Shown: piece by piece, positions 13,929 to 62,914 of the stretch
Layout of the letters: each line of letters starts with the position of its first letter
How positions within the stretch are numbered: position 1 is the stretch's first letter
Assembly (NCBI RefSeq): GCF_900110815.1
Contig: NZ_FOIT01000002.1
Span: forward strand, 103,825 to 167,824
DNA from: Aliicoccus persicus
Lineage (GTDB): Bacteria > Bacillota > Bacilli > Staphylococcales > Salinicoccaceae
DNA: 64,000 nucleotides
Direction: 5' to 3'
Made by a program: the position numbers and the translations under genes
Notes under the pieces: generated by a model
What the model saw: only the letters and a program-made list of their open reading frames with translations
Told to the model about the DNA's origin: nothing
The model's database searches: none

Positions 13929-13982
13929 CGAGAGTAAATTATATGCCCGCAAAGACATAGATATACAACTGTATCGATGTAA

Positions 13983-14067
13983 CACTTTCCTACGCCAGTT
14001 TTAACTGGATCAGGTTCAAAGGGTCTGAGGTTACCCTCATCTCAGTTTATAAAAACGCCCCTAGTGC
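13983..14067 (-). ncRNA. TPP (THI-box) riboswitch aptamer
   Basis: Minus-strand RNA shows the conserved THI elements in order: GGGGCG, CTGAGATGAGGG, AACCTCAGACCCTTTGAACC, then CTGATCCAG and ACTGGCGTAGGAAAG. These are the two arms that grip the pyrimidine and the pyrophosphate of thiamine pyrophosphate. A terminator hairpin follows at 13892-13928 and then the SDR/monooxygenase operon. Neither gene is among the classical thiamine synthesis or transport genes. Confidence 0.92.
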
Positions 14068-14419
14068 GAATCTATTCTATTTAACATCATTGTAGTACTT
14101 TACAAAGATACGTCAAGTAAATCACAAATTATGTGAATTGGAACAAACACAATTCAAATTCAACTCTGTAACTGTACTGCTATCTAGTTCTTATATGATT
14201 GAGTGAATGTTATAAGATAGTTATCAGTATAATTAAAATCTAATTTTATTTGCAATATTTAACATTTTAGAATAACTTGAGGTTATTCATTGGAAAATTA
14301 AATAGTTAAGACCACTACAGGCAATCTTACTCATTAACTTAAGAAGCACAGCTGAAGCAATAGATTATATGCATGTGTGAAGTGAAAATAGAAAAAATTT
14401 TAATACTGGAGGAATCAAC
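14068..14419. other. Intergenic stretch with no recognised feature
   Basis: AT-rich 352 bp between the riboswitch and the restriction gene. It should hold divergent promoters for both but I see no convincing pair of -35/-10 boxes, hairpin or small gene. Confidence 0.4.
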
Positions 14420-23016: not shown

Positions 23017-24000
23017 ATGACAAAGGTTTATGATATTACGATTATTGGTGCCGGTCCGACAGGATTATTTACAGCATTTTATGGTGGAATGCGCCAAGCA
23101 AGTGTAAAAATTATAGAAAGTTTACCCCATGTTGGTGGTCAGCTGACTTCACTGTATCCGGAAAAAGATATTTATGATGTTCCGGGATTCCCTAAAGTCA
23201 AGGCGCAAGATTTAGTCAATCAGCTCGAAGAACAGATAAAATTATTCGATCCCGAAATTGTTCTTTCACAGGCAATTGAAAATGTTGAACGTTTAGATGA
23301 CGGCACGTTGAAGCTCACATCTAACACAGGCGAAGTACATTTGACGAAAACGATGATTCTCACTGCTGGTAACGGTGCATTTAAGCCACGTCTTTTAAAT
23401 ATTGACAACAGTGAAGAATTTGAAGGAAAGAACTTGCATTATCACATTAGAGATATGGAACAATTTAGAGATCAGCATGTCGTGTTACTCGGTGGTGGTG
23501 ACTCTGCCGTTGACTGGGCACTGATGCTTGAAGAGGTTGCTAAAAAAGTAACGATTGTTCACCGACGCGATAAGTTCCGTGCACATGAGCACAGTGTCGA
23601 ACGTCTTCATGCATCGAGTATTGAAGTATTGACACCATATAAAGCAGAAAGCATTACGACGTCAAACAAAATTGATTCGATTACTCTGCAAGAAGTTAAA
23701 GGCGATACAGTTCATGAGTTACGTCCGGACTCAATCATTTGTAACTATGGCTTTGTGTCCACATTAGGACCAATCAAAGATTGGGGACTAGAAATTGAGA
23801 AAAACAGTATCGTCGTCAATTCAAAAATGGAGACGAATATACCAGGAATTTATGCTGCTGGTGATATAAACACCTACCCAGGAAAAGTTAAATTGATTGT
23901 CACTGGGTTTGGTGATGGTCCTATTGCAGTAAATCATGCGAAACAATATATGGATCCAGATGCAAGACTTCAACCAAAACATTCAACGGATATGTTTTAA
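23017..24000 (+). CDS. Ferredoxin/flavodoxin--NADP+ reductase (YumC, thioredoxin-reductase-like)
   Basis: FAD enzyme moving electrons between NADPH and ferredoxin or flavodoxin. It has FAD-binding [17 protein letters not shown] at the N-terminus, the VGGQL motif, NADPH-binding [13 protein letters not shown] in the middle and [18 protein letters not shown] at the end. It lacks the CxxC of true thioredoxin reductases, which marks the TrxR-like FNR type. ATG 23017 follows AAGGAGAGG and gives 327 aa; a longer frame from 22960 adds 19 residues without family likeness. It is monocistronic. Confidence 0.93.
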
Positions 24001-24046
24001 AATATAACCAACGGTGTTTGGACATAAGTTTTGATTAAGTAAATTT

Positions 24047-24143
24047 AAAATAAAAAGCGCACTCGCTTTTTCCTGGGGTATCGCGTGAGCCTGTAGTCTC
24101 ACGCAGATGCTATTCCCCAAGGAGTCGAGTGCGCTTTTATTTT
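24047..24143. repeat. Long imperfect palindrome between convergent genes
   Basis: A 97-bp hairpin: outer arms AAAAGCGCACTCG / CGAGTGCGCTTTT, middle arms CTGGGG / CCCCAAGG, inner arms GCGTGAG / CTCACGC around CCTGTAGT, flanked by A/T runs on both sides. It lies between YumC and VLRF1, whose 3' ends face each other. It could be a bidirectional terminator, a structured RNA, or a mobile palindrome that insertion sequences target. Its size and G+C content exceed the other terminators in the window. Confidence 0.7.
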
Positions 24144-24189: not shown

Positions 24190-24558
24190 ATCCGTTTGCG
24201 CGTCAGTGAGCCACTTTCATTGGCACGTAAATCCGTTTGCGCGTCAGTGAGCCACTCTCATTGGCACGTAAATCCATTTGCGCGCCAGTGAACCACTCTC
24301 ATTGGCACGTAAATCCGCTTGCGCGTCAGTGAGCCACTCTCATTGGCACGTAAATCCATTTGCGCGCCAGTGAGCCACTTTCATTGGCACGTAAATCCAT
24401 TTGCGCGCCAGTGAACCACTCTCATTGGCACGTAAATCCGCTTGCGCGTCAGTGAGCCACTCTCATTGGCACGTAAATCCATTTGCGCGCCAGTGAACCA
24501 CTCTCATTGGCACGTAAATCCGCTTGCGCGTCAGTGAGCCACTCTCATTGGCACGCAG
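24190..24558. repeat. Nine 41-bp tandem repeats, each able to form a hairpin (array A)
   Basis: Units start at 24190 and recur exactly every 41 bp to 24518. They open ATCC(G/A)(T/C)TTGCGCG(T/C)CAGTG and close CTCATTGGCACGTAA. Within a unit CGCGTCAGTGAG can pair with CTCATTGGCACG (11 of 12 positions with G-U pairs) around CCACT. Some units are identical blocks of two, showing recent expansion. There is no spacer variation, so this is not CRISPR. The unit length is not a multiple of 3 and no gene is encoded. A diverged array lies at 32353-32844. Confidence 0.92.
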
Positions 24559-24603
24559 ATCCGTTTAACGGCCTATAAGATTTTGCCTCTGCCCTTTTTC
24601 CTC

Positions 24604-25395
24604 TTAAATCAAATCTTCATATATTTCGTTAACGATCTCATGGCTTTTCTTCGTACCGATGTTTTTATATACGACACCGCTTAAATGTGCCTTATCCATG
24701 TTTTCTTCGAGTGCTTGAACGAGGTCACTACTGCCAATTAAATAAGCACCTTCAAGTCCTCTATCTTTAATCTTCTTACCAATCTTAGGTGCGATATTTT
24801 TGTACCAACGATGTTTGTTTTCATTGAATCGGCGTTCAAAATGATCTTGTCCAGAACCTCTTGAGCCTGGTGGTGAATCATTGTTGTAGTCCAACCAACT
24901 TTCACTTTCGAAATCCCAACTATAAGCAATCTCATCTTTTATATCACCGAGTTCAGTTTCAATAAATCGCACATCCGTTTTTTGTAGTGCAATGACTGCA
25001 ACATTTGGATATTTTTGAATAATTGCTTCAAACTGTTTAGTTGCTGGCGTTTTCTCCCAGTGGAGCGTCGTTGTCACAGGCACTTGTAGATTTCTTTCTT
25101 CCCATAACTCCCCATCTGCTGATGCCGTGATGACTAATCCTTTGTGTAAGTCCATTTGAAGTTCACTCACGCGATCTTCAAATTGTTTCAGCAACTTTTT
25201 CAATGCTTTCTTCTCATCGTCATTCGCGTCTTTATCGGCATAGTTTTTCATTTCTTTGATTTCATTTTTTAAGTGAATTTTCCATTCACCATTATTTAAT
25301 TCTGGACTGCTCGCATCGGTAGTCAAATAAAGTGTTAATACACCGATTTCGTCTTCTATTTTACTGATCCGTTCAAATTCTTTTCTAACAGACAT
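24604..25395 (-). CDS. VLRF1-family (archaeo-eukaryotic RF1-like) release factor
   Basis: A 263-aa protein of the bacterial aeRF1-like group. It has the N-terminal EFERISKIEDEIGVLTLYLTT segment, a basic central loop DSPPGSRGSGQDHFERRFNE that holds the glycine-rich motif where eRF1 has its GGQ peptide-release motif, and a C-terminal nucleotide-like fold with AYLIGSSDLVQ. The family is thought to release nascent chains from stalled large subunits in rescue or quality control; that role is family knowledge. ATG 25395 has AAAGGAGG at normal spacing. It is monocistronic and convergent with yumC across two repeat structures. Confidence 0.82.
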   Translation of the reverse strand: MSVRKEFERISKIEDEIGVLTLYLTTDASSPELNNGEWKIHLKNEIKEMKNYADKDANDDEKKALKKLLKQFEDRVSELQMDLHKGLVITASADGELWEERNLQVPVTTTLHWEKTPATKQFEAIIQKYPNVAVIALQKTDVRFIETELGDIKDEIAYSWDFESESWLDYNNDSPPGSRGSGQDHFERRFNENKHRWYKNIAPKIGKKIKDRGLEGAYLIGSSDLVQALEENMDKAHLSGVVYKNIGTKKSHEIVNEIYEDLI

Positions 25396-32345: not shown

Positions 32346-32352
32346 GTTTATT

Positions 32353-32844
32353 GTTGTGTTTCGTGTCAGTGAGTGGGTTTCATTGACGTGTAAATCTGTT
32401 TTCGTGCCAGTGAGCGGGTTTCATTGGCGTGTAAATCTGTTTGCGTGTCCGTGAGCTAGTTTCATTGGAACGCAAATCAATCTGCGTGTCCGTGAGCAAG
32501 CCTCATTGGAACGCAAATCAATCTGCGCGTCAGTGAGCGGGTTTCATTGGAACGCAAATCAATCTGCGTGTCTATGAGCGAGCTTCATTGGAACGCAAAT
32601 CAATCTGCGTGTCAGTGAACAATCCACATTGGAACGTAAATCAATTTGCGCGTCAGTGAGCGAGTCTCATTGAAACGCAAATCAATCTGCGCGTCAGTGA
32701 GCGAGTCTCATTGAAACGCAAATCAATCTGCGTGTCCGTGAGCAATCCACATTGGAACGCAAATCAATCTGCGTGTCCGTGAGCAATCCACATTGGAACG
32801 CAAATCAATCTGCGTGTCAGTGAGCACATCTCATTGAACCGTAA
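32353..32844. repeat. Twelve 41-bp tandem repeats, hairpin-forming (array B)
   Basis: The same 41-bp family as at 24190, phase kept exactly (unit starts 32353, 32394, 32435 ... 32804) but more diverged. Typical units read ATCAATCTGCGTGTCCGTGA and end CATTGGAACGCAA. Arm changes often remain pairable, for example TTGCGTG with ACGCAA where array A has GCGCG with GCACG. The first two units and the last are the most divergent, as expected at array edges. It lies in a 667-bp gap (32312-32978) between two plus-strand genes, downstream of the DHFR terminator. Confidence 0.9.
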
Positions 32845-32978
32845 ATCCATTTTCCCACCAAGAAACAAGTCTCTTTTATACAGTTGATAAACTTCCTACT
32901 AAACAGATTGCTCGCCAACTCCACTCTTCCTACATATAATAACTATTAATAAGAAAACTATTTAGGAGTCGTTCAATT

Positions 32979-40525: not shown

Positions 40526-41503
40526 TTACTTTGCATCTTCTTCATCTGATTCATCATTCTCTTCAGAATCTTCTATTTCAGTACCTTCACCGTCAGTGGG
40601 TTCAAGTGATTCTACACCATCTTGAATTTCTACACCTTCCGGTAATTCTAATTCAAATAATGATTCTTCAAATTCTTCTTCATTCATTTCAAGTGTTACA
40701 TATTCAGAACCGATAACTGAGTCTGAACCATCATCAATTTCTTGTTTTAAGATGATGTAATACTCTGTATCAATCCACATCGTTGTTGGTGAAGCGAATT
40801 CAGCACCTTCTGCATCTTCAATAGGTTCTAAGTTCACTTTGTATGCATCACGATCTCCAACTTGTTGAGTTCCTTCAACTGTTATATCATATGTTGTTGC
40901 AAGTGTTTCTAAATACTGAGATGCAGTGATTGCAGTGGACTCCATTTCTGTTTCAGGTGCATCAATACCACTTTCATCTTCAGTTTCAGTATCTTCTTCA
41001 CCTTCAGCTGCATCGTCTTCTTCAGATACGCTTATTGGAATTCGGAATGCTTGTTCTTGTCCTTCAGTATACACTAGCATTTCCTCACCATTGTTCACCA
41101 TTATTGTTAATGAACCATCAGGGTTTTCCATTTCCGTTCTAGAAAGGACAACATCTCCATCGTTCTGATACCATTCACGTGTTAAAGATTCATTATCAAC
41201 ATCTGCAACAGTTACTGAAATTGCTGTTTCAAGATAAAGATTCTCAATCTCATCTTGTGCTGCATAGCCATTTTCAATTAATGTTTCAAAATCAATTGCT
41301 TCATCTGTATTCACTTCACTCGATTCTTCTTGAGTTTCAGTATCGTCTTCTACATCTTGAGTTTCTGTTTCTTCCTCTACTTCTTCTGTGTCCGCATCAC
41401 TATTGTCCTCATCGTCTTGTGCAAATGCTACGTTTTCTCCATTCACGTTAAGTGCGAGTACCGACATTAGTGATAAACCTATACCTGTTTTTAAAAGTTT
41501 CAT
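40526..41503 (-). CDS. Acidic exported protein, LolA-like domain
   Basis: A 325-aa exported protein: a signal peptide with likely cleavage after AFA (about residue 28), a run of Glu/Asp/Thr (29-70), then a beta-rich domain (YLETAISVTVADVDNESL, EWYQNDGDVVLSRTEM, YVTLEMNEEEF) that resembles the LolA-like fold of Firmicutes sporulation and lipoprotein-carrier relatives, and an acidic tail. The fold call is from pattern only. No anchor is visible. It shares general design, not clear identity, with the protein at 51986. Such acidic surfaces fit a salt-tolerant host. Confidence 0.7.
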   Translation of the reverse strand: MKLLKTGIGLSLMSVLALNVNGENVAFAQDDEDNSDADTEEVEEETETQDVEDDTETQEESSEVNTDEAIDFETLIENGYAAQDEIENLYLETAISVTVADVDNESLTREWYQNDGDVVLSRTEMENPDGSLTIMVNNGEEMLVYTEGQEQAFRIPISVSEEDDAAEGEEDTETEDESGIDAPETEMESTAITASQYLETLATTYDITVEGTQQVGDRDAYKVNLEPIEDAEGAEFASPTTMWIDTEYYIILKQEIDDGSDSVIGSEYVTLEMNEEEFEESLFELELPEGVEIQDGVESLEPTDGEGTEIEDSEENDESDEEDAK

Positions 41504-61710: not shown

Positions 61711-62914
61711 AGTAACGTTGTGCACCAGGGTGAACATCAATTACCATATTTTCAAGCGAGTTTTCAACGCTAATATCTTCAGCTGCTTGGTGAGAGTTCG
61801 CAAGTGTATCTAAATTTTCAAATAAGAATCGAGTTAAGTAGTATACATCATCTTCACTTAAGTCAGCGCGGACAACTAAAGCGTTCATAATCGCAGCAGT
61901 CGGAACTGCTTCTTCATTTCCATATGTGTCAGCAGGAATATCCATTGAAGTAAAGTAATCTTCTTCGATATTTGAAATCACCTCAGGATCGATAGGTACA
62001 ATCTTCAGGTCAACTGAGTTTTGTAATTCCATAACAGACGCGTTTGGTAAACCAGATGTCAAGAATGCAGCATCTAAATTTCCACCGCGCATAGCCTCAG
62101 CCGCTTCAGCGTAACCTAAGTAGTCCACATTAAAATCATCATACGATAAGTCATGTGCTGCAATGATTGCACGAGATGCAATTTCTACACCTGAGTTTTG
62201 GTCACCAACAGCAACACGTTTACCTTCTAAATCTGCGATGCTTTCAATACCAGAACCTTCAGTTGTGATTAACTGTACGAAGTTGGGATATAAAGCAGCA
62301 ACTTGTTGTACGTTTTCAACTGGCTCAGAGAACGATTCTTCACCGTTTACAGCTTGCATTAACGCATCAGACATTACGAACGCCATTTCAACGTTTTCTT
62401 GAGAAAGTAAGATTAAGTTTTCTGCAGAAGCACCAGTAGTTTCAGTACGTGCGTTAACACCGAAAGCTTTAGAGTACCCGTCAGCTAACGTCGTTGCAAT
62501 GATGTTATATGGTCCAGAAGAACCACCAGTTGCAATTGTTACAAGGCTAGTTTCAAGCTCCACATCTTCAAAATCAGCAGCAGCTTCATCTAACTCCGCT
62601 TCAATATCAGCATCTGATACTTCATCCTCTTCAGCGTCCGCGTCTTCTTCAGCGTCCGCATCTTCCTCAGCGTCCGCATCCTCGTCAGCGTCTGCGTCTT
62701 CTTCAGCGTCCGCGTCTTCTTCAGCGTCTGCGTCTTCTTCAGCGTCTGCGTCTTCTTCAGCGTCTGCGTCTTCTTCAGTGTCCGTATCTTCCTCTACTTC
62801 TTCAACGTCCTCTGTATCTTCGTCCGTTGTATCCGTATCCTCTTCTGAATCATTACATGCAGCAAGCAGTAAAGATGCAGCAAATAGAGCAGCTAATGGC
62901 TTTCTTAATTTCAT
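61694..62914 (-). CDS. TAXI-family TRAP solute-binding lipoprotein with acidic tandem linker
   Basis: A 406-aa extracytoplasmic binding protein. The lipobox LLAAC ends the signal peptide (Cys about 20). Residues 25-115 are an acidic linker made of repeated (D)AEEDAD units, then the TAXI domain begins (SLVTIATGGSSGPYNIIATTLADG, RTETTGASAENLILLSQ, LEGKRVAVGDQNSGVEIASR). It delivers its ligand to the fused permease downstream. AAGGAGG precedes the ATG. The linker length is unusual for the family. Confidence 0.92.
   Translation of the reverse strand: MKLRKPLAALFAASLLLAACNDSEEDTDTTDEDTEDVEEVEEDTDTEEDADAEEDADAEEDADAEEDADAEEDADADEDADAEEDADAEEDADAEEDEVSDADIEAELDEAAADFEDVELETSLVTIATGGSSGPYNIIATTLADGYSKAFGVNARTETTGASAENLILLSQENVEMAFVMSDALMQAVNGEESFSEPVENVQQVAALYPNFVQLITTEGSGIESIADLEGKRVAVGDQNSGVEIASRAIIAAHDLSYDDFNVDYLGYAEAAEAMRGGNLDAAFLTSGLPNASVMELQNSVDLKIVPIDPEVISNIEEDYFTSMDIPADTYGNEEAVPTAAIMNALVVRADLSEDDVYYLTRFLFENLDTLANSHQAAEDISVENSLENMVIDVHPGAQRYYDEVE
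62628..62778 (-). repeat. Short tandem repeats coding the acidic linker
   Basis: In-frame repeats of about 18 bp, coding AEEDAD with single-base variants (GCGTCCGCGTCTTCTTCA, GCGTCTGCGTCTTCTTCA on the plus strand), occur about eight times within the TAXI gene. Near-identity of units suggests the number can change by slippage. Confidence 0.8.

Follow-up and report, generated by a model that had tools for sequence, protein, structure and literature searches.

Tandem arrays of 41-bp dyad units in Aliicoccus persicus and a linked family of NERD-domain genes look like an undescribed two-part genetic system

The window analysed here is a stretch of 64,000 nucleotides of Aliicoccus persicus (C7:103825-167824) and contains two tandem arrays of 41-bp units. 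Array A occupies the gap between two convergent genes, and array B, which belongs to the same family, lies between two + strand genes. Genes and open reading frames (ORFs) were called by script, and array boundaries were set by the repeat finder. The features of the locus, in window coordinates, are as follows:

23017..24000, + strand: gene left of array A, a putative ferredoxin/thioredoxin-reductase-type flavoprotein judged by eye (ORF calling)
24046..24141, no strand assigned: long terminator-like inverted repeat, AAAAGCGCACTCG...CGAGTGCGCTTTT, between the + strand gene and array A
24190..24566, + strand: array A, nine 41-bp units with the consensus AAATCCRTTTGCGCGYCAGTGARCCACTCTCATTGGCACGT (Tandem Repeats Finder and sequence)
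24195..24231, no strand assigned: first 37-bp imperfect dyad of array A, the remaining dyads following at +41 steps
24204: start of the first 19-bp core of array A, with one core per 41 bp thereafter
24604..25395, - strand: gene right of array A, 263 aa, convergent with the left gene (ORF calling)
32351..32849, + strand: array B, twelve 41-bp units of the array A family, between two + strand genes

Array A was reported by Tandem Repeats Finder with a period of 41, 9.2 copies, 91% matches, and 0% indels, and nine complete dyads are visible in its sequence, each unit being an imperfect inverted repeat. An initial sequence-only reading had described nine hairpin-capable units with an exact 41-bp period in a convergent gap; the sequence, the repeat finder, and the ORF calls all confirmed this, and the pattern of identical unit pairs within the array was as that reading had stated. 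Assignment of the array to the + strand is a convention in which the GTGAGC arm is placed on the left. The inverted repeat at 24046..24141 was partly detected as a terminator-like site on the - strand. Elsewhere in the window, a TPP riboswitch was identified at 13970-14072 on the - strand (Rfam, 77.9 bits), two copies of a 27-bp repeat were found at 41328-41385, and an 18-bp repeat with 8.7 copies at 62628-62784 fits an Asp/Ala/Glu repeat in a coding frame.

The ability of each unit to fold by itself, also claimed at the outset, was verified on the + strand (-14.6 to -16.7 kcal/mol; z of -3.4 to -4.8 relative to shuffles), and the - strand of a unit folds less well. Good folding of single units on one strand would suit transcribed hairpins acting as 3'-end stabilisers or terminators, as would the placement of arrays at the 3' ends of genes, where those linked to the protein family described below start just past the stop codon. 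Comparison among units argues strongly against such a role. Over 78 distinct units the arms paired at 76.7% of positions versus 78.0% after shuffling, pairing in 483 of 500 shuffles equalled or exceeded that observed, and inner stem positions paired less often than in the shuffles. RNAalifold returned no consensus structure, G.U and A.C mismatches were not strand-concordant within arrays, and the two orientations were about equally frequent in tandem gaps (6 versus 5). No Rfam family matched over array A at the gathering score. The earlier suggestion of a processed structured RNA did not survive these comparisons, and a function as transcribed hairpins is very improbable.

A genome-wide search for the unit returned many more occurrences than one per genus. 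The A. persicus genome (G000; 2.06 Mb in 8 contigs) carries about 43 arrays and about 374 units of the array A family, distributed over every contig except the smallest, and array copy numbers are lower bounds at the runs of N (C4:50081, C4:144082, C5:97729, C5:155949, C6:234244, C6:249430, and C7:256877) where the assembly is unresolved inside or beside arrays. The window does lie near the origin, with dnaA at C7:68980, as had been remarked; the arrays are spread genome-wide, and the idea that they organise the chromosome near the origin was not borne out.

Related arrays with a common core and differing linkers are present in Jeotgalicoccus genomes. The arrays that were read came from nine genomes, and the spacing between their units was exactly 41 bp in 542 of 552 cases (98%). 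When a search of three Jeotgalicoccus genomes left the gap free (8-36 bases), almost only a gap of 22, corresponding to the 41-bp step, was recovered. The core can be written CNRTGA-N7-TCAYNG, with most Jeotgalicoccus array consensi taking the form CWATGA-N7-TCATWG, and is nearly invariant, the same core pattern having served both to find the arrays and to describe this conservation. Linkers vary between arrays and are homogenised inside each array; the consensus of 317 units has AAATC linkers. One half-site is usually ATGAGC (or GTGAGC), and the other half-site differs. In both genera, dyad positions adjacent to the spacer paired less often than in shuffles, and perfect palindromes seem to be avoided. 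At the edges of 63 arrays, identity to the array consensus was retained for about 9-10 bp past the outermost core and then dropped on both sides, which indicates that the arrays consist of whole 37-bp imperfect dyads set 4 bp apart. The core-pair pattern gave 295 hits in A. persicus and was present in 8 of 9 Jeotgalicoccus genomes (6-116 hits), with 0 hits in the other 147 genomes of the order that were searched; a reversed-pattern control gave zero in every genome. The exact unit pattern had no match in named genomes or viral contigs because linkers differ between species. An exact 56-bp duplication with a terminator-like hairpin adjoins one Jeotgalicoccus array (L059:1686-1797).

Comparison of the proteins flanking the arrays identified a recurrent chromosomal gene family in whose products, of about 327 aa, an N-terminal NERD domain is followed by a zinc ribbon with four cysteines and by a winged helix at the C-terminus. 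Within the taxonomic family, 32 of 33 genomes contain it, most Jeotgalicoccus genomes having 7-12 hits. The A. persicus members considered here are as follows:

C8:45959-46942: NERD1, with array A-type arrays on both sides in direct orientation
C6:210631, with C6:209913-210497 (L149:1314-1898): NERD2 and its own, unrelated 41-bp array of 14 copies

The NERD1-linked array on contig C8 is adjoined by a predicted lipoprotein in which runs of Asp-Ala are very long. To extend the comparison, named genomes of Jeotgalicoccus, Salinicoccus, Lacicoccus, Alkalibacterium, and Marinilactibacillus were scanned with two short protein patterns, yielding 67 NERD loci that are a sample and no census. An adjacent tandem array was present at 54 of these 67 loci, which are related to each other and hence not independent, with a step of 41 bp in 46 arrays, 42 bp in 11, and 52 bp in 1. 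The array lay downstream at 47 loci and in all but one of these had its start between -7 and 53 bp relative to the stop codon, and several of the loci scored as array-less had a 41- or 42-bp autocorrelation at the gene end. The complete Jeotgalicoccus genome G010 has four NERD copies with an array about 10-22 bp past the stop, one of them with a 42-bp step. Arrays with a period of 40-42 bp numbered 59 in the 40 kb lying within 300 bp of NERD genes, compared with 6 in 357 kb of other sequence, and 4 of these 6 lay just past broken or misread NERD genes, which had an early stop or a frame open into the array. Among distant relatives, those of genus g3 had no array, and those of genus g5 and Marinilactibacillus had 52-bp arrays (L128:923-1537 and L216), a step that exceeds 41 bp by about one helical turn.

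The NERD domain (PF08378) scored 46.1 and 54.8 bits against a Pfam cut-off of 22.1. The D...ExK signature of PD-(D/E)XK enzymes is formed by D74, E87, and K89, residues that do not vary among 52 proteins; one paralog, outside the 52-protein set, is without the lysine of the EIK motif. A sequence search against solved structures gave meaningless matches only. The predicted model of the A. persicus NERD protein (pLDDT 92.6) has a winged-helix arrangement at the C-terminus. Its N-terminal part was matched best by the PD-(D/E)XK nucleases Can2, VC1899, Cdn1, and McrC (Z of 7.5-8.4) and its C-terminal part by the RAP30 winged helix (Z of 6.6 over 68 residues), matches that are modest, with a best Z of about 8 and Foldseek E values of about 1e-3. 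In the putative recognition helix, fixed positions are mixed with highly variable ones. On the basis of the predicted fold and the D...ExK signature, the family was classed as PD-(D/E)XK nuclease-like.

A nuclease encoded beside a repeat array raises the question of a defence or addiction module, in which the enzyme would have a toxic action on foreign or host DNA, and the arrays would hold the enzyme by acting as a DNA sink or immunity mark. Some defence proteins contain NERD domains, weak partial hits to MkoA of Mokosh and PglW of BREX were obtained, gene and array are adjacent, and genomes hold several diverged copies. Against this, PADLOC gave only short partial hits of 10-22 bits to much longer profiles, so that no full-length defence match was found; by PADLOC and NCBIfam searches the family is not a known defence system. 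Moreover, no second protein was seen, and gene-less arrays are scattered through the genome. Nor were relatives of the family found in plasmid, phage, or viral collections, a result that speaks against carriage by plasmids or phages as a defence module, led to the rejection of a phage or plasmid origin, and means that nothing shows present mobility. A defence or addiction function is therefore quite improbable.

The array type differs from gene to gene. Between paralogs, array sequences are unrelated (mean identity of 0.44 versus 0.42 for shuffles), and NERD-linked arrays are dyad-symmetric as a set (P about 1e-9); since they are unrelated and have the same step, the shared trait is the period and not the sequence. 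Array likeness nevertheless tracks protein likeness (Mantel 0.36, P<0.002), although inheritance of a gene together with its adjacent array could yield part of this signal. The partial Mantel value was 0.253 for the C-terminal part given the NERD part (P 0.001) versus 0.074 for the NERD part given the C-terminal part (P 0.027), from which it follows that the winged-helix domain carries the tracking. All 42 dispersed A. persicus arrays compared were nearest to the NERD1 type, with an identity of 0.74 versus 0.40 for the NERD2 type, the latter being at chance level. Judged by its sequence, array A is thus a dispersed, gene-less copy of the NERD1-flanking type. The NERD2 array type has relatives at about six other places in A. 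persicus, and a Salinicoccus genome in which one array type adjoins its NERD gene contains 12 additional matches to that type. In G010 all arrays fall to three NERD-linked types, with counts that include the gene's own array:

gene at 1796536: nine arrays
gene at 539213: five arrays
gene at 1751301: one array

The DNA flanking the arrays has a compositional footprint. Read 5' to 3' towards the array, the flanking strand is C-poor and G/T-rich, with a GC skew that falls from 0.51 over the first 20 bp through 0.29 at 40-60 bp to about 0.05 beyond 120 bp; no comparable skew was seen in array-free gaps. The same skew occurs beside unrelated NERD-linked arrays, at 32 of 32 Jeotgalicoccus flanks and 17 of 22 Salinicoccus/Lacicoccus flanks. 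Transcription was rejected as its cause, because the skew was equal in convergent and tandem gaps and inverted between the two sides (left +0.42, right about -0.4), independently of gap type. Cytosine deamination alone does not account for the G enrichment. The pattern suggests a trace of repeated strand-specific DNA processing outwards from the array, such as resection and repair. At one occupied/empty pair of sites, the skewed tails belong to the segment missing from the empty site, and they may instead be added sequence. This symmetric footprint also bears on the view that the arrays are ordinary neutral minisatellites adjoining NERD genes by chance. Homogenised units and variable copy number are typical of slippage or unequal exchange and agree with that view, which has to contend, beyond the footprint, with a single 41-bp period across unrelated sequences, linkage to one gene family, and matching of type to gene; it is barely credible.

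Arrays are concentrated in convergent gaps: 25 of 42 array-bearing gaps were convergent versus 21 of 133 other gaps in A. persicus (odds ratio 7.8, P 1e-7), and 14 of 26 versus 7 of 65 in Jeotgalicoccus (odds ratio 9.7, P 3e-5); divergent gaps are nearly array-free. Positions were compared between the Jeotgalicoccus genomes G010 and G014, in which all four arrays examined in the first 300 kb were co-located, with matched flanking proteins 81-97% identical; this stability between close species indicates that array movement is slow. Co-located arrays kept the core, and their other columns were 52-65% identical. Elsewhere, 17 units in G010 corresponded to a single dyad in G014 and 14 units to none, and two short G014 arrays had no counterpart at the matching G010 sites. 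Only one array place was found common to A. persicus and Jeotgalicoccus. Such presence and absence between species, together with dispersal, is compatible with the earlier proposal of a selfish repeat.

The strong convergent-gap bias, the exact phasing of units, and the retention of the core in orthologous gaps while other columns diverge could be expected of sites placed between convergent genes to serve the host as a chromosomal organiser, an insulator, or a topology device, in which case the nuclease domain would be structural or regulatory. This reading is modelled on a proposal made for gyrase at REP elements of Escherichia coli. Harmless insertions also survive in convergent gaps, however, and close relatives are without arrays at orthologous gaps. 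One housekeeping role is hard to reconcile with as many as 12 paralogs that each have a separate array, and the active site is conserved. A host-serving role for the arrays is considered unlikely.

Taken from sequence comparison and predicted structure, the arrays and NERD genes look like an undescribed two-part genetic system. It is probable that array A is a gene-less copy of the DNA half of this system, that the cognate NERD protein is the other half, and that DNA processing maintains and occasionally spreads the arrays. The winged helix would bind the dyads of its own array type, and binding would be cooperative, the 41-bp step placing successive dyads on the same face of the DNA about four helical turns apart. 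The predicted nuclease domain would then cut or process DNA at the bound arrays, and repair would amplify, homogenise, and occasionally relocate them. Direct arrays flanking some genes would allow recombination that could leave solo arrays, and copies would persist most readily between convergent genes, since no promoter is harmed there. The protein-binding array proposed at the outset thus gains indirect support from the invariant core, the 41-bp phasing, the whole dyads at array edges, and the tracking by the winged helix. Slightly short of an even chance, in our judgement, is the broader proposal of a new class of element, in which a putative nuclease recognises, makes, and spreads its own 41-bp-phased palindrome arrays, with many diversified, mutually orthogonal protein-array pairs within one genome, gene-less non-autonomous copies, and a strand-specific flank footprint of repeated cutting and repair.

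A search of the open-licence literature turned up no report of NERD genes being linked to repeat arrays, or of such repeats in these genera. With the association, a little-known protein family is joined to a large class of repeats that had gone unnoticed, and both become testable. If the proposal is true, dozens of naturally diverged protein-DNA pairs would be available from which the recognition code of the winged helix could be read, and the flank footprint, taken with the fixed 41-bp step, would point to a mechanism of array building undescribed in the literature found.

Among known systems, PglW (BREX/Pgl), MkoA (Mokosh), and SmdA, a NERD-domain protein of Staphylococcus aureus (PMC9040797), have the NERD domain (PF08378) alone in common with the present family; their domain make-up is otherwise different, and no repeat arrays are described for them in the literature found. 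CRISPR arrays are similar in being regular tandem repeats beside a nuclease gene. They differ in that here the whole 41-bp unit is repeated, linkers are homogenised within arrays, unique spacers are absent, and the NERD protein is without a cas-like match, so that the initial judgement that array A is not a CRISPR holds. The BOX and STAR elements of Gram-positive cocci are likewise species-limited, intergenic tandem modules of variable copy number, with other unit sequences and lengths and without a constant 41-bp step across unrelated units; we know of no nuclease gene described as linked to them.

The system appears to work most like REP elements with their RAYTs, to which it is unrelated in protein. 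REP, BIME, and REPIN sequences are dispersed extragenic palindromes that are commoner at sites downstream of genes or in the gaps between convergent ones (PMC3733652), and each REP family is tied to one protein gene that has such repeats alongside (PMC3116915). Dispersed extragenic palindromes, a linked protein gene, and a bias to 3' ends and convergent gaps are thus held in common. Membership in the REP/RAYT class was rejected. The Y1 (HUH) transposase domain (PF01797) had 0 matches in the whole A. persicus genome, the control being positive in 5 known genomes, and neither a GTAG nor a CGTC tag was found at the hairpin foot in the consensus of 317 units. The partner is instead a NERD nuclease-like winged-helix protein with another enzyme fold, the repeats form fixed-period tandem arrays of whole dyads at 41 bp whose sequences are unrelated between paralogs, no hairpin pairing is selected, and the flanks have a skew footprint. 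If the proposed system is real, it would mean that the REP/RAYT strategy has been invented a second time, independently and with another enzyme.
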